Source of the DNA: Salipaludibacillus daqingensis
GTDB lineage: Bacteria > Bacillota > Bacilli > Bacillales > Salisediminibacteriaceae
Direction: 5' to 3'
Assembly: GCF_029891575.1 (NCBI RefSeq)
Contig: NZ_JARZHF010000012.1
Coordinates: 62,001 to 126,000, forward strand
DNA length: 64,000 bases
Positions within the stretch are counted from its first letter, which is position 1. Each line of letters starts with the position of its first letter. The notes under the pieces are model-generated. The model saw only the letters and a program-made list of their open reading frames with translations. It was not told where the DNA came from and made no database searches. The position numbers and the translations under genes are program-made. This document shows positions 10,402-19,508 of the stretch, piece after piece.

Positions 10402-10418
10402 ATTTACCCTTCTCCATC
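10387..10418. terminator. Perfect 32-bp palindrome joining sspP and selA 3' ends
   Basis: The two halves are exact reverse complements (half-site GATGGAGAAGGGTAAA), so RNA from either side folds into a 16-bp hairpin. It contains both stop codons and encodes DGEG-stop on both strands. There is no T-run on either side, so termination is plausible but not textbook. Confidence 0.75.
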
Positions 10419-11837
10419 ATGTTGATCTAATGATATCAATTGATCTTCTACATCTGTTAATTCGTCCGACGATACCGTCCGAAAATCAATAAATAAACGA
10501 TTCTCTTTAATTCTTGTGATCAATGGAATATTCCCTGTTCTGAGAAATGCTTCACAACGATTGACACTCAAATGTTCTTTTTCAACCGCTACTCCGTATG
10601 TCGGCAACTCTTCGATAGGCATCGTTCCACCGCCTACTTTTGAAACATCTTCTTCTTTACGAATGGATAACGTTTTAAACTGGACAGCCATTTTCTGTAT
10701 GAAATGATCCACTTCAAGAGAAATGTCATCTTTAGTTTTCAAAATATCTCGAACGGCAGGAATTTGCTTTACCTTTTCCGGTTCATAAACATAATCGTGT
10801 AACGTTGCCTCTAATGCTGCTAACGTCATTTTATCAACACGAAGCACCCGAGCTAACTGGTGTTTTTTAAGTTTAGAAATATATTCCTTTTTCCCAACGA
10901 TAATGCCTGCTTGAGGACCTCCTAATAATTTATCCCCACTAAACGAAATGATATCAGCACCATCAGCAATCGATTGTTTCACGACGGGTTCCTCGCCGAT
11001 TCCTTCATGAATGAACGGAAATAACGACCCACTTCCTAAGTCTTCGTAGACGATGACAGACGAATCATTTCTGTTGTCTCTAGCAATTTCTTTTAGTTGT
11101 TTCACCGACACATCAGACGTAAACCCAACGGCTTTGAAATTGCTCGTATGCACTTTCATAAACATTTTTGTTGCATCAGAAATGGCATTTTCATAATCGT
11201 ATGGATGCGTTTTATTTGTTGTTCCGACTTCCACAAGTGTCGCATCACTCTCTTCCATGATCGTAGATACACGGAAAGAACCACCGATTTCCACAAGTTC
11301 CCCTCTTGAAACTACAACTTCCGACCCTTTCGTTAATCCTCGCAAAACTAAGTACACAGCAGCTGCATTGTTGTTAACAACCATCGCAGCTTCCGCACCT
11401 GTTGCTTTAATCAAAAGATCCTCCAGCAAACTATGACGAGATCCTCGACTACCTGAATCAATGTCATATTCCAAATTAGAATAATATCTAGATGTTTGCA
11501 AAACCTGGTTCATCGCTTTTTCACTCAATCTTGCTCTTCCTAAGTTTGTGTGAAGAACGGTTCCTGTTCCATTAATGACTCTTCTTAAGTTAAATGGGTG
11601 ATAAGAACGAGTTCGGTTTTTGAGTTGATCAAATAGGTACTCGGTGAAATCTTCTCTTTCATAAGATTCAAATCCCGAAGCATCGATTTTAAGTTGTTCA
11701 CGGAGGTTATGTAGTTCTTCATTTATCCATTCTTTCCATTGTTTTAGAGGAATTTGACCTTGTTCGTGAATGGTCGTAAATTCCTCGGAGTCCATCATTT
11801 CATGAACAGGAGGCAATTTTCTAAAAAGGGTTTCCAT
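10404..11837 (-). CDS. selA: L-seryl-tRNA(Sec) selenium transferase
   Basis: About 477 residues, the family's usual size. A pyridoxal-phosphate enzyme that converts seryl-tRNA(Sec) to selenocysteyl-tRNA(Sec) with selenophosphate. The PLP lysine lies in SFSGDKLLGGPQAG. The N-terminal RRVINGTGTVLHTNLGRA block and the ATGAEAAMVVNNNAAAVYL block are diagnostic of SelA. Two ATG codons are adjacent; the second (11837) has the better spacing from AGGAGG. It partners selB, selD and selC within 7 kb. Transcribed toward sspP and ending in the shared palindrome. Confidence 0.97.
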   Translation of the reverse strand: METLFRKLPPVHEMMDSEEFTTIHEQGQIPLKQWKEWINEELHNLREQLKIDASGFESYEREDFTEYLFDQLKNRTRSYHPFNLRRVINGTGTVLHTNLGRARLSEKAMNQVLQTSRYYSNLEYDIDSGSRGSRHSLLEDLLIKATGAEAAMVVNNNAAAVYLVLRGLTKGSEVVVSRGELVEIGGSFRVSTIMEESDATLVEVGTTNKTHPYDYENAISDATKMFMKVHTSNFKAVGFTSDVSVKQLKEIARDNRNDSSVIVYEDLGSGSLFPFIHEGIGEEPVVKQSIADGADIISFSGDKLLGGPQAGIIVGKKEYISKLKKHQLARVLRVDKMTLAALEATLHDYVYEPEKVKQIPAVRDILKTKDDISLEVDHFIQKMAVQFKTLSIRKEEDVSKVGGGTMPIEELPTYGVAVEKEHLSVNRCEAFLRTGNIPLITRIKENRLFIDFRTVSSDELTDVEDQLISLDQHDGEG

Positions 11838-12141
11838 CATCTTCCTCCTTTCTGATAATTGGTATATTAACGCTCAGACACTTCTATTAATTTCCATTTA
11901 TAAAACTTGTATGCATTGGTCATTCTAATTAGTGAGGAAGGTCAATAACCTTCTTCAACGAGTGAATGATATTGTTTTTGTACAGGATTCGTTGATATAA
12001 CCTTGAGGGGTGGTACGCTTGGCCTACTAACGTAGCAAGAAAAGCAGAAACATCAGTAAAGGAAGTAAAAACGAAAGTAATGAGGTGTTAACAAAAGATA
12101 AACATCGACTTTACCCTAGAAGAAAGACACATTCACTCGAG
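11838..12141. other. Non-coding interval upstream of selA
   Basis: No gene with an acceptable start and family resemblance is visible. A plus-strand reading from about 11965 with an in-frame TGA was considered and rejected. The interval should hold the selA promoter, which I could not assign. Confidence 0.4.
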
Positions 12142-12172
12142 AAAAAGGTGGTCCTTGGAGACCACCTTTTTC
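12142..12172. terminator. Strong bidirectional hairpin
   Basis: AAAAAGGTGGTC pairs with GACCACCTTTTT around a short loop. It follows the 45-residue membrane peptide gene on the minus strand. Confidence 0.85.
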
Positions 12173-12182
12173 ATATGTACCT

Positions 12183-12320
12183 TTATTCACCTTTGCCAAA
12201 TGTTTCACGCTCTCGTGCAATCTCTTGTTGATCTTTGTAATCTTTTGCAAAACCAGCAGCATAAATAGCTAGTCCAATTCCTAAACCAATCCCCAAACCT
12301 TTAAAAAATTTCTTTAACAT
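12183..12320 (-). CDS. Small single-pass membrane protein, unknown
   Basis: 45 residues. After a basic start (MLKKFFK) comes a glycine-rich membrane helix (GLGIGLGIGLAIYAAGF), then a charged tail ending ERETFGKGE. GGGGGAGA precedes the ATG at suitable spacing and a strong terminator follows the stop, so this is a real transcription unit. Family not recognised. It lies inside the selenium locus between selA and the Rdx selenoprotein gene, but nothing in the sequence ties it to selenium. Confidence 0.65.
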   Translation of the reverse strand: MLKKFFKGLGIGLGIGLAIYAAGFAKDYKDQQEIARERETFGKGE

Positions 12321-12519: not shown

Positions 12520-12768
12520 CTAACCATAATTTTTGATTGATTCGATTTCATTAATCAGTTCTTTATGATCAGGGAATCGATCTGTCTCCCATTTAGAGAA
12601 TATTTTCTTCCCATTTACAGAGACTTCGAAAACACCGCCTGAACTAGGAATTAATTTCATCTCTTCAATATCCGTTCTTAAATCTTCAAACACGTCTTCT
12701 GCGAAACTCGCAGCTTTAGGCGCATAATTTCACTGCATGCAAAATTCTACGGTGATGTTCAATTTCAT
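12520..12768 (-). CDS. Rdx (SelW/SelT/SelH) family selenoprotein, Sec at codon 13
   Basis: 82 residues when the in-frame TGA at 12730-12732 is read as selenocysteine. The protein starts MKLNITVEFCMQU, giving the C-x-x-U redox motif at residues 10-13 directly after a beta strand, as in SelW-like thioredoxin-fold proteins. The family's second block follows as GGVFEVSVNGKKIFSKWETD, then a terminal helix. AAAGGAG lies nine bases before the ATG. Downstream of the TGA a hairpin with a GUU loop forms the likely SECIS. Normal calling stops at codon 12 and misses the gene. It is divergent from selD. Exact redox partner unknown. Confidence 0.9.
12699..12713 (-). promoter_or_regulatory. SECIS hairpin of the Rdx gene
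   Basis: On the minus strand CTGCGA-GTT-TCGCAG forms a six-pair stem with a GUU loop, the loop starting 23 bases after the UGA. Bacterial SECIS elements sit in this window and carry G-U in the apical loop for SelB recognition. Confidence 0.75.
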
Positions 12769-12893
12769 TATAAAAAACTCCTTTGTGAAAGTTTTGTGAA
12801 TTTTTTGTACGTTGACTTACATTTTAAAAGATCATTTGTCGAAGGTCAATGAAAAGGTTTATAATGGATGATAGTAAAGGAGGTGCTTACAGT

Positions 12894-13958
12894 ATGGTAA
12901 AAAATATATTTTCTTCTAACAAACGTTTAACATCAATGACAAAAAAAGCCGGTTGAGGATGCAAAATTGGTCCTGATGACCTGGCGCAAGTTTTGCGTCA
13001 TTTACCTTCTAAAGATGAAGATGAGCGACTCCTTGTTGGATTAGATACATCAGATGATGGCGGCGTCTATCAATTAACAGACGACATTGCATTAGTGCAA
13101 ACGGTCGATTACTTTACACCTATCGTAGATGACCCATATATGTTTGGCCAAATTGCAGCGGCCAATGCGCTAAGTGATGTTTATGCCATGGGTGGAGAAC
13201 CGAAAACGGTTTTAAATATCGTTGGGTTTCCAATTAAAAAGCTTTCCCATGAAATTCTAGCTCAAATTTTAAAAGGGGCATCTGATAAAACGAAAGAAGC
13301 AGGTGCTGTTATTGCTGGAGGCCATTCCATTGATGATCAAGAGCCAAAATTTGGATTAAGTTGCACAGGAATTGTCCATCCAGACAGAATTTTTAAAAAT
13401 GTCGGTGCCAAACCAGGTGACAAATTAGTCTTAACGAAACCACTTGGTGTAGGCATTTTAACGACCGCTATTAAATTCGGAAAAGCTTCTGAACAAGAAG
13501 AAGAAGCTTCTACGAACACGATGGCAACACTAAATAAAGTGGCAGCGGAAGTTCTAAAAAGCTACCATCCTCATGCTGTGACAGACGTAACGGGCTTTGG
13601 TTTGCTTGGTCATGGTTACGAAATGGCAAGTGGCAGCGACGTTAGTTTTGACATTAGCTATGGCAGTGTTCCATTGATCGATGGAACATTAAAACATGCC
13701 AAAGGCGGTGTCATCCCTGGTGGCGCTAGAGATAACCATGCTTGGTTAAGCCCAAACATTACGTACGATTCATCTTTGAAAAAGCACGATCAGCTAATTC
13801 TTTGCGATTCGATTACGAGTGGCGGATTATTAATTAGTCTTCCAGCAGAAGAAGTCGATGGGTACATTAATGAAATGAACGAAAAAGCACCCTTTGCCGC
13901 TGTTGTCATAGGTGATGTTACAGAGAAAAAAGAGAAAGACATTTATGTTTCGAAATAG
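12894..13958 (+). CDS. selD: Selenophosphate synthase, itself a selenoprotein (Sec at codon 21)
   Basis: 354 residues with the TGA at 12954-12956 read as Sec. Makes selenophosphate, the selenium donor for SelA and MnmH, from selenide and ATP. The ATG at 12894 follows AAAGGAGGTG by eight bases. The glycine-rich start reads AGUGCKIGPDDL, with Sec in place of the catalytic Cys found in many SelD. Further SelD blocks include LVGLDTSDDGGVYQL, TVDYFTPIVDDPYMFGQIAAANALSDVYAMGG and TDVTGFGLLGHG. If the TGA is treated as a stop, callers start at an internal codon and lose the active site. A terminator separates it from the LysR gene. Confidence 0.96.
12982..13000 (+). promoter_or_regulatory. SECIS hairpin of selD
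   Basis: TGGCGCAA-GTT-TTGCGTCA forms an eight-pair stem (one G-U) with a GUU loop, the loop starting 26 bases from the stem-side context and about 34 bases after the UGA. Same apical triplet as in the Rdx SECIS. Confidence 0.8.
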
Positions 13959-13964
13959 AAAGAC

Positions 13965-13993
13965 AAAAGGTCGCACGTTTGCGACCTTTTTCT
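13965..13993 (+). terminator. Terminator after selD
   Basis: AAAAGGTCGCA pairs perfectly with TGCGACCTTTT and is followed by T residues, lying between selD and the LysR gene. Confidence 0.85.
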
Positions 13994-14026
13994 TTCGATT
14001 TTGGATGGACAGGAGGAGTCAATTCA

Positions 14027-14902
14027 ATGAACGTCAAACGGTTGGAAACGTTTATTACGTTAATAGAAACGAAAAGTTTTTCTAAAACAGCACAAAAACT
14101 AAACATGACACAACCTGCAGTAAGTCAACAACTGAAGTTATTCGAAAAAGAAATGGGTACGGCCTTGCTAGATCGCGAACGTTTCACGTTAACCAAAACC
14201 GGTGAAATTGTTCTTACAAAAGGCCGAGAAATCGTTCAGTCTATTGAAAATATGCAGACAGAAGTGAAATTAGCTGATCACCAAATTGCTGGATTATTGA
14301 AGTTGGGGGCTAGCACCGTAGCTAGTACGCATTTAATACCTCGTTTATTAGCATCGGTGACACAAAAACATCCGTCCCTTCGCTTTCATATTCAAGTAGC
14401 AGATACGATGCAAATGATTAAAAAAGTTTACGACGGCGATTGTGACTTAGCGATTGTAGGCACGGATAAAGTTGATCATTCATTCGTTTCACACCCCGTT
14501 TATACCGATCGTTTCGTCTTGATTGCTTCTCCTGAGTGGAATATAGAATCTGACATGGAATCTATCGTAAAAAAACCGTTTATTTCACGGGAAAAAACAA
14601 GCGGAACGCAACATGAAGTAGAGAAATTATTAAAAAGAGAAAAAATTTCAATAAATGAGATGAACAGCATCGCAACGGTACAAGATACGGAAGCGGTTAT
14701 TGCTTTTGTAGAAAACGGATTAGGCATATCAATCATTTCTCAATTATCTGGATCAAAGGCGATCGAAGAAAAAAGAGTACAGGTTGTTCATATGTTTGAC
14801 TCCACAAGAACCTTCTCTCTCATTTATCATCGGAACAATGAAAATGATCCAGTTATTCAAGCAGTAAAAACCATCTGTAACACAAACTGGGACGGAAATT
14901 AA
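14027..14902 (+). CDS. LysR-type regulator in the selenium locus
   Basis: 291 residues. An N-terminal winged helix (MNVKRLETFITLIETKSFSKTAQ..., recognition segment LNMTQPAVSQQLKLFE) is followed by a periplasmic-binding-type effector domain (LKLGASTVASTHLIPRLLASV). The ATG at 14027 follows AGGAGGAG. Resemblance is to the CysL/YwfK branch. A LysR subgroup is commonly found beside selD/selA genes in Firmicutes, and the position here suits that role, but the regulated genes and ligand are unknown. Its last codons lie in a perfect 34-bp palindrome. Confidence 0.88.
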   Translation: MNVKRLETFITLIETKSFSKTAQKLNMTQPAVSQQLKLFEKEMGTALLDRERFTLTKTGEIVLTKGREIVQSIENMQTEVKLADHQIAGLLKLGASTVASTHLIPRLLASVTQKHPSLRFHIQVADTMQMIKKVYDGDCDLAIVGTDKVDHSFVSHPVYTDRFVLIASPEWNIESDMESIVKKPFISREKTSGTQHEVEKLLKREKISINEMNSIATVQDTEAVIAFVENGLGISIISQLSGSKAIEEKRVQVVHMFDSTRTFSLIYHRNNENDPVIQAVKTICNTNWDGN

Positions 14903-15004: not shown

Positions 15005-16903
15005 TTAATACTCCGGCTTCTTAAGCCACACCCGCTCATTATCTTCTCGTTTCGTAAAACCTGATTGATCAATTTTCTCCATCATCGGAACTAAATATTT
15101 CCGAGTTAGACCAAGGACCTGTTTCGCGTCTTGTAATGTGAATCGGTCTTCTGTTTGTTCATATAAATCATTCATTGCTTGCCTAAACGATGAAACAGAT
15201 AGTAAGTGTTTCTCATCCATTTCCATCACTCGTTTTTGTCGGATAAGAAAATGCTTTAACTCTTGTGCCCATTGTTCAGGAAGTCCGGCTCTTTCCACAA
15301 TCATTGCTATAGGTTCAACCTCTAATCCTTGTTTCATTAACGTCTCTTCCACTTGCTTCATTCGCTTTTCCCATTGCTTTGGATATCCAGGTTCAAATGT
15401 CACGGAAGCAACTGCAGAACCGCTTTTCTTAAATTGCTTATCACGGATGCCTTTATCGATGACAGAAGATGCCACTTCTTTTCCATAAGAGGCTAAGTCT
15501 TGCTTTAATTGTGCTAATTCCATTCCATCTCGAAGGGGATATTCCTTGTGATATGTGAGCAATTCTTCTTCGATGATTTCTAACATTTCTTCGTAAGTCA
15601 TCGCTAAAACATAGTTCTCGCCGAAACGTAATAATGTTTCCTCTTCTAAAAGAGGGGCAACAAACTCTGTAAACTCTTCATCGGATAACGACAACTCTGC
15701 ACACGCTTCTTTTTTCGATAATGATTTCTTTAATTTTAATAAGTCCATCAGTCTTTCCGTTGGAGATCCTTCTTTTTTTCGCTCCAATTTTTCAATCGTT
15801 TCTTCCCCGAATTTATAACGATCTCCTTGTGGATCAATGACAATTCCACCGCCTATCGTCTCCATTGGTGAAGGCCGGCGCAAAATAAATCGATCCCCAC
15901 GCTTTGTCACAACTGGATCATCAAGACGAAGCTGACAGAGAACGTTTTTATCATCTGTTAATTCATTTCGATCGAAAAAGACAATTTTCCCGTAAACTTC
16001 CGCAGTGCCAATATGTAATTTAATATAACCTCTTTGTTTCACCGGGTATTTCAATTGATCAACCGTGTCTAACGAAATATCGATTGTATTCGTTGTACTA
16101 TAATGTTGAGTTGACACAAGAACATCACCGCGACTTAGTTCATGTTTGGACACGCCACCTAAGTTGATAGCAACCCTTTGCCCTGCTCTCCCTGATTTTT
16201 GGGCTTCATGATGCACTTGAAGTTGCCTTGCACGGACTTTCTTTTTTTGCGGAAGAATTTCCAACGTATCTCCTTCATGCACTTCCCCTTCATAAACGGT
16301 TCCACGGACGACCGTCCCTTGGCCATGAACTGTAAATACTTGGTCAATGGGCAGACGAAACGCTCCTTTGGAATTTTTCATTGGGATCGTAGACAATCGG
16401 CGCTTGATCTCCTCGCGCAACTCTGGAATCCCTTTTTGTGAAAGGCTATCAACAAAAAGTAATTCAGATCCTTCAAAAAACGTCCCTTCCACTTGATCAG
16501 AAATATCCGCTTCTATCAGTTCAATCATATCCTCTTCCACTTGATCCATTTTTGTGACAACAATGAGCCCTTGGTGAATCCCTAACAAGTTTAAGATATC
16601 CAAGTGCTCCACTGTTTGTGGCATGACCCCTTCATCCGCTGCAACAACGAGAATCACTAGGTCAATTCCTGCTACTCCTGCAATCATTTGTCTAATAAAT
16701 TTCTCATGCCCAGGCACATCAATGACCGATACTTGCGAGTCATCGTCCAATTTCAATGGTGCGTACCCTAATTCAATGGATATCGATCGTTCCTTTTCTT
16801 CTTTTAAACGATCTGTATCTATGTTTGTTAATGCTTTTGTTAACGTTGTTTTGCCGTGGTCGATATGCCCCGCCATACCAATCGTATAAAATCGTTTCGA
16901 CAT
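15005..16903 (-). CDS. selB: Selenocysteine-specific elongation factor
   Basis: About 632 residues. Delivers Sec-tRNA(Sec) to UGA codons marked by a SECIS hairpin. G-domain motifs are AGHIDHGKTT (P-loop), DVPGHEKF and TKMD, followed by EF-Tu-like domains 2 and 3 to about residue 350. The C-terminal third is a run of winged-helix modules that bind the SECIS RNA. The second of two adjacent ATG codons (16903) fits the GGAGGGG site better. Faces the LysR gene; selC lies upstream on the other strand. Confidence 0.97.
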   Translation of the reverse strand: MSKRFYTIGMAGHIDHGKTTLTKALTNIDTDRLKEEKERSISIELGYAPLKLDDDSQVSVIDVPGHEKFIRQMIAGVAGIDLVILVVAADEGVMPQTVEHLDILNLLGIHQGLIVVTKMDQVEEDMIELIEADISDQVEGTFFEGSELLFVDSLSQKGIPELREEIKRRLSTIPMKNSKGAFRLPIDQVFTVHGQGTVVRGTVYEGEVHEGDTLEILPQKKKVRARQLQVHHEAQKSGRAGQRVAINLGGVSKHELSRGDVLVSTQHYSTTNTIDISLDTVDQLKYPVKQRGYIKLHIGTAEVYGKIVFFDRNELTDDKNVLCQLRLDDPVVTKRGDRFILRRPSPMETIGGGIVIDPQGDRYKFGEETIEKLERKKEGSPTERLMDLLKLKKSLSKKEACAELSLSDEEFTEFVAPLLEEETLLRFGENYVLAMTYEEMLEIIEEELLTYHKEYPLRDGMELAQLKQDLASYGKEVASSVIDKGIRDKQFKKSGSAVASVTFEPGYPKQWEKRMKQVEETLMKQGLEVEPIAMIVERAGLPEQWAQELKHFLIRQKRVMEMDEKHLLSVSSFRQAMNDLYEQTEDRFTLQDAKQVLGLTRKYLVPMMEKIDQSGFTKREDNERVWLKKPEY

Positions 16904-17092
16904 CATGACCCCTCCAATGATTTCCCTTTAAATTCAACGAATTCTTCATTTATTTTACCATACCAATGAAGTGAAATCTTTGCAGACACTTTTTCTGATC
17001 GTAAAAATATAATGAAGTCCTTTAAACCGAAGAACTATTAATCATGTTTTTAGCCATAAACGTTTAAGGGGGATTCATTTTAGTAAAAAAGG

Positions 17093-17142: not shown

Positions 17143-17239
17143 GGGGCCGGATGTGTAGCTGGTGCTTGCCGAGGTCTTCAAAACCTTCAGGGAGGCGCGT
17201 GCCGTCTCCGGTGGGTTCGATTCCCACACGGTCCCGCCA
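17143..17239 (+). tRNA. selC: tRNA-Sec (anticodon TCA)
   Basis: A 97-nt tRNA, long as expected for tRNA-Sec, with encoded CCA. The acceptor strand GGGGCCGG pairs with ACGGTCCC over seven pairs including G-U, plus an eighth G-A position, consistent with the extended Sec acceptor. The anticodon arm GAGGT-CTTCAAA-ACCTT carries TCA. A long variable arm (GGGAGGC/GCCGTCTCC) and T-arm GTGGG-TTCGATT-CCCAC follow. Discriminator base is G. Reads UGA as Sec with SelA/SelB encoded next door. Confidence 0.95.
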
Positions 17240-18980: not shown

Positions 18981-19323
18981 TTAACAGCATAAGCTTATTG
19001 TTATTGCTAATGTCCCACATTGGTTTTCTTTTTCAGGTGAATAGATCTCATAAATGGTTTCCAACATCTCATCCATTGGTTTTCCTTCACAATTTAATTC
19101 TTGAAATGGAATGTCTTCATACATTTGCTTAAAATTTTTGTACTTTCTAAGGTTGATCACTTCAACAATAATCGTATCTTTTTGGGATGATAATTTTTGA
19201 AATTCAATCCTATCACCTACCTTAATTTTTCTTCTCTTTTCATCATTTAAACGGATCTCAACTGCTTTTTTTCCTTGTTTGACTGCATCAAAATATTCTT
19301 CATAACCTCATTTTATGTACCAT
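18981..19323 (-). pseudogene. Frameshifted ASCH-domain protein gene
   Basis: A ribosome site (AAAGGAG) and ATG at 19323 start the reading MVHKMRL, which stops at a TGA. In the next frame the protein continues EEYFDAVKQGKKAVEIRLND, then KVGDRIEF and a C-terminal block to a TAA at 18981. This is a typical ASCH/PUA-like RNA-binding domain. The simplest repair is restoring two bases in TTAT(AT)GAAGAA, as if a TA dinucleotide was lost. Length (343 bp) is off by one base from a whole reading frame. Either a recent pseudogene or an assembly error. Confidence 0.8.
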
Positions 19324-19508
19324 TCATTTCTCCTTTTTCTGAACATCTGACCAAGTAAAAGTAATATAACTGTAAGAATCCTTTTAACTTATTCAACATC
19401 TGAGAAAGGACCTCCTTTGTTTTTTACAATAATATAGGAATGATTATTGTATTTGATTAGAATAAATGAATAATGAACGATACCTAGACATATTTTTGGA
19501 GGGGAATA

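Follow-up and report, generated by a model that had tools for sequence, protein, structure and literature searches.

A SelW-like (Rdx) selenoprotein gene with a predicted selenocysteine codon in the sel gene cluster of Salipaludibacillus daqingensis

In the window, a stretch of 64,000 nucleotides from a Salipaludibacillus daqingensis contig, positions 12520 to 12768 are overlapped by no table-11 open reading frame of 60 or more amino acids, and the question is whether a gene is nevertheless present there. A sequence-only reading had described this segment as empty in standard gene calling, which the ORF list of the window bears out, and had assigned it to a selenoprotein of the Rdx (SelW-like) family. 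Its coordinates proved correct, but the strand needed correction: the gene, here named rdx, sits on the minus strand, and the plus-strand frame is broken by further stops. Read from 12768 to 12520 with TGA taken as selenocysteine (Sec), the frame is open over 82 residues (MKLNITVEFCMQU...IKNYG*). The ATG is preceded by a ribosome-binding site, identified by eye, and the TGA occupies codon 13, both as previously claimed, so that CMQU forms residues 10-13 of the product. Taken together, the data described below make it highly probable that 12520-12768 is a functional gene encoding a SelW-like selenoprotein whose UGA is read as Sec. The features of the locus are compiled in Table 1.

Table 1 Positions of rdx, its predicted decoding signals and the surrounding sel genes in the window
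Feature	Position	Strand	Evidence
selA, selenocysteine synthase	10404..11840	-	PF03841, 454.7 bits
rdx, putative SelW-like selenoprotein gene	12520..12768	-	82 aa, CMQU; profile, fold and homologues
Bacterial SECIS-type hairpin CUGCGA-GUU-UCGCAG (candidate)	12699..12713	-	Covariation, synonymous diversity, window scan
In-frame TGA, codon 13, predicted Sec	12730..12732	-	Column TGA in 73/74 loci (redundant)
Ribosome-binding site AAAGGAG	12778..12784	-	9 bases 5' of ATG, by eye
selD, selenophosphate synthetase, own TGA at 12954-12956	12894..13958	+	TIGR00476, 406.3 bits, 1 TGA
GUU-loop hairpin behind selD TGA	12982..13000	+	Listed as terminator-like site in scan
LysR-type regulator, directly 3' of selD, within sel cluster	13979-14902	+	
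selB, Sec-specific elongation factor	15005..16906	-	TIGR00475, 364.4 bits, above cut-off; SelB domains
selC, tRNA-Sec, anticodon TCA	17143..17239	+	ARAGORN; Rfam RF01852, 61.2 bits at 17143-17235

The read-through product matched the Pfam family Rdx (PF10262) with 77.1 bits (cut-off 22.6; E 1.2e-21) over residues 4-76, corresponding to model positions 1-73 of 74. This match spans both sides of the TGA, and the two halves therefore belong to one protein. The product also scored above the cut-off of the NCBIfam model TIGR02174 (70.4 bits versus 34.2); with the narrower model NF041051, named '(seleno)protein', it reached 80.3 and remained under the cut-off of 88. Since such curated models exist for the Rdx family, the label 'unannotatable' given to the gene earlier was overstated.

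A structure model of the product was built from five sequences with Cys in place of Sec and attained a mean pLDDT of 84.5 and a pTM of 0.73. The predicted topology, strand-helix-strand-strand-strand-helix, is that of the thioredoxin-like fold of the Rdx/SelW family, and the first strand (residues 3-10) leads directly into the CMQU motif, matching the C-x-x-U expected behind this strand. The top fold match in the PDB was the SelW-related entry 2fa8 (E 3.5e-9, TM-score 0.88 normalized to the query length), which together with the PF10262 score substantiates the Rdx (SelW-like) identity. All 23 PDB chains found at E ≤0.001 were of Rdx/SelW type, as judged by title or sequence search, with thioredoxins appearing from E 2e-3. 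Because of the predicted family fold and the motif, we infer a selenol redox role; the product is most likely a small thioredoxin-fold selenol oxidoreductase.

The entry 2fa8 represents Atu0228, a Cys-containing Rdx protein which resembles the rdx product in sequence as well (E 4e-13 over residues 3-76) but has CTQC where the latter has CMQU. The same CTQC is present at this site in two other Cys relatives, 2ojl and 3dex. Mouse selenoprotein W (2npb) is similar to the model in fold (E 1.6e-4, TM-score 0.73) and is a weak sequence match (E 0.071). The nearest named homologous loci originate from Salipaludibacillus, with 84% identity to S. keqinensis. In the alignment column of the predicted Sec, 73 of 74 loci have TGA, the set being redundant and comprising 68 distinct sequences, 67 of them with TGA. 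The single TGC was found in a gammaproteobacterium (locus L070), whose protein shows CNQC opposite CMQU at 39% identity over 67 residues. The homologues found thus continue beyond codon 13, and this column is occupied in the relatives either by TGA or by Cys, so that neither of the two outcomes which the sequence-only reading had named as refuting it was observed.

In bacteria, SelB and Sec-tRNA decode UGA as Sec with the help of a hairpin that is part of the reading frame, while the SECIS element of eukaryotes is located in the 3' UTR. The rdx hairpin lies in the coding sequence just past the UGA and differs in this respect from the mouse and other eukaryotic elements. It starts at base 17 past the UGA and its loop G is the 23rd base, in agreement with the distance given in the sequence-only reading for a GUU-loop hairpin. 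Of the 2678 TGA trinucleotides in the window, both strands counted, 2 are followed at a distance of 16-28 bases by a perfect 6-bp stem whose triloop begins with G, and the rdx hairpin is one of the two. In an alignment of 67 Sec sequences, of which 66 were distinct and from which the TGC locus was excluded, the six pairs were formed in 99.2% of 396 cells, compared with at most 58.6% for slid pairing partners. Four of the six pairs exhibited changes on both sides, a number of pairs that was reached in 43 of 500 shuffles. The 56 compensatory cells stood against a shuffled mean of 15.6, and the covariation score of 0.434 against 0.178, with 0 of 500 shuffles attaining the observed score; the shuffling ignores kinship. 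Relative synonymous diversity amounted to 0.31 in codons 5-10 after the UGA and to 0.86 in 26 other codons, calculated for the 53 distinct sequences of loci L001-L059 with the comparison limited to codons showing residue conservation above 80%. As judged from these alignments, the hairpin is under selection at the RNA level. The case for it is built on covariation and codon conservation and not on fold energy, which is unremarkable for the rdx stretch by itself (z -0.62).

The codons of the hairpin encode a conserved KAASFA, and its conservation could thus be attributed to protein and codon constraints only, with no SECIS element involved. We consider this very improbable in view of the narrow synonymous choice, exemplified by one position at which Ser is encoded by AGT in 52 of 52 cases, and of the second pair of the stem, which links two Ala codons at their third positions: of the 53 rows from L001-L059, 33 have T-A there and 20 have C-G, with no mixed combination.

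The presence of selA, selB and selC around the gene, on which the proposed read-through of UGA had been founded, was established for all three genes, and selD with its own TGA lies in the same cluster. In all 29 cases considered (L032-L059, n=28, plus the window), rdx is followed on its own strand by a gene of the selA cluster, and in 28 of the 29 a gene of the selD cluster is located upstream on the opposite strand, with L048 as the exception and selD further off in L055; the neighbour gene clusters were defined by BLASTP. Among 60 genomes, selD was found above the cut-off in 44, in 41 of them with one TGA and in three without (G028, G041, G055). The tested sequence requirements for bacterial Sec decoding are thus present in rdx, and the machinery in place supports a predicted Sec insertion. 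Ribosomes would start at the ATG at 12768, and SelB, bound to the hairpin just 3' of the UGA, would bring the Sec-tRNA encoded by selC to codon 13, giving a product of 82 residues with the redox motif CMQU. Without selenium, translation would yield a 12-residue peptide only.

The space between rdx and selA holds a 45-aa ORF (MLKKFFKGLG..., 12183-12320, minus strand) with perhaps one membrane helix and no Pfam match. A terminator-like hairpin (12147-12166), absent from the list of terminator-like sites in the scan, follows it. The ORF was found in 18 of 60 genomes, including the own genome, and a part in the Sec system was not borne out, because it is kept in three congeners that lack both selB and Rdx.

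Among the same 60 genomes, the own one included, an Rdx match was present in 41, in 40 of them with one TGA inside; the Rdx match of G030 contains a TAG in addition to the TGA. In a larger sample of 397 genomes of the order, again including the own genome, 165 had an Rdx match, and each of the 165 matches (listings of 150, 5 and 10) has one TGA inside, a statement that for most of them derives from a count of internal stops, the TGA column having been read in the fetched loci. A Cys form of Rdx was not seen in the order sample. selB was detected in 179 of these 397 genomes (E ≤1e-80, all above the cut-off). When the lists were compared by hand, 164 genomes contained both Rdx and selB, 15 selB only, one Rdx only and 217 neither (Fisher p 1.3e-92, kinship ignored). 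In the single Rdx-only genome (G232) the match lies 269 bases from the contig start. The congeners G001, G005 and G006 are without selB and without Rdx; G042 and G033 (80% complete) have selB and gave no Rdx match. In 398 genomes of the phylum, Rdx matches occurred in 31, of which 28 rows show one TGA and three show none, one of these three (G590) being partial.

Genome G028 deserves separate mention. The front part of its Rdx (locus L085) is gone; the match comprises residues 45-79 only, a C-terminal remnant beside two copies of a repeat, and this looks like a loss in progress. In the SelD of the same genome TGT (Cys) replaces the TGA, and selB is retained. A hairpin-like stretch persists behind this TGT.

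Some bacteria read UGA otherwise, and the codon could accordingly specify another amino acid, e.g. Trp or Cys inserted by a near-cognate tRNA. Our analysis yielded no support for such a decoding, and it is hard to reconcile with an Rdx presence that tracks selB, with a covarying hairpin and with the Cys found in this column in the UGA-less homologue; we assign it a very small probability. Least probable of all is a pseudogene, or an ordinary short ORF ending at the UGA with a decaying remnant downstream: a table-11 stop does break the frame and G028 is an example of such decay, but one TGA lies inside all 165 Rdx matches of the order, the TGA column is the same in 73 of 74 loci, and the frame beyond it is intact and conserved as protein.

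Rdx is accompanied by further selenoprotein candidates. In the own genome, at least two genes for formate dehydrogenase contain a single TGA within the match, located in CNRTUHAPS, and five genes of the AhpC-TSA family likewise contain one each, in contexts that look like redox motifs (FTFVUPTE, FTPGUIKE, WASWURC, GVDUSIC and HLGUPIC). These genes (loci L117-L123) lie outside the window, and their hairpins were folded singly. Including Rdx and SelD, at least nine candidate selenoproteins are predicted from the genome sequence, which would make the strain a selenoprotein-rich bacillus; the definition in PMC5029168 sets this at six, a number that the candidates exceed.

A system with Rdx and SelD as sole selenoproteins and without formate dehydrogenase was considered for other genomes. 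A formate dehydrogenase match was absent among the matches listed for G013, G035 and G044, but the proposal does not hold for G013 and G035, given their TGA-bearing AhpC-TSA and Fe-S_biosyn matches, the Fe-S_biosyn (HesB-type) match of G013 falling below the cut-off. In G044, no TGA-bearing match to these two families was found. The Fe-S_biosyn (HesB-type) proteins at loci L124 and L125 display the motifs AGUGGPQ in G035 and IGUGGPQ in G042.

Within the window, a mechanical rule yielded 23 candidate genes with an internal TGA, including rdx and selD as well as a frame whose TGA precedes the start of selA. Another is an ASCH-domain frame (18981-19346, minus strand; Pfam 60.6 bits) that has an in-frame TGA close to its beginning. 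It was not counted as a selenoprotein, the TGA being away from a redox motif, and may be a gene that starts later or a broken one. Of the remaining window candidates, this frame alone was scanned against Pfam, the others being judged by eye.

A further possibility is that, in this order, the SelW-like protein does more than serve as one of the clients of the Sec machinery and takes part in selenium supply. It could pass reduced selenium to SelD, or keep the Sec of SelD reduced. Bearing on this are the head-to-head orientation of rdx and selD, with selA lying downstream of rdx, the lack of a Cys form in the order sample, the presence and absence of Rdx together with selB, and G028, where the front of Rdx is lost and SelD also carries Cys. 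The head-to-head arrangement allows a role in selenium supply; on the whole we regard this as unlikely.

SelW-like proteins are well documented in surveys of bacterial selenoproteins. PMC1794560 (2006) places them among 25 bacterial selenoprotein families, states that Cys forms are absent or very rare in organisms that use Sec, and attributes three selenoproteins to all Bacillales. PMC2398784 (2008) gives SelW-like as CxxU in the first row of a table, with 427 selenoproteins, and Table 3 of PMC5029168 (2016) records SelW-like in 35 organisms across all bacteria. As the family was already included in these surveys, the gene described here belongs to a known kind. It shares with the bacterial SelW-like selenoproteins (PF10262; TIGR02174) the CxxU motif, the size, the family profile and Sec at the second redox position, and we see no difference in kind, the host here being of Bacillaceae type. 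The rdx product is a further member of a well-known bacterial selenoprotein family, and the find is largely ordinary. In the literature on Sec or SelW in Bacillus, Bacillales or Salipaludibacillus, we found no mention of this particular rdx gene.

The less familiar aspect is one of scale: Rdx was present in 164 of the 179 selB genomes sampled, and no fewer than nine candidate selenoproteins are predicted from the own genome. In nearly the whole of the sampled order Rdx goes together with selB, to be compared with the 35 organisms in the table of PMC5029168 cited above. The analysis also provides a firm selenoprotein call at a site that is blank in a table-11 ORF listing. The role of this common small SelW-like selenoprotein in bacteria is a question accessible at the bench.
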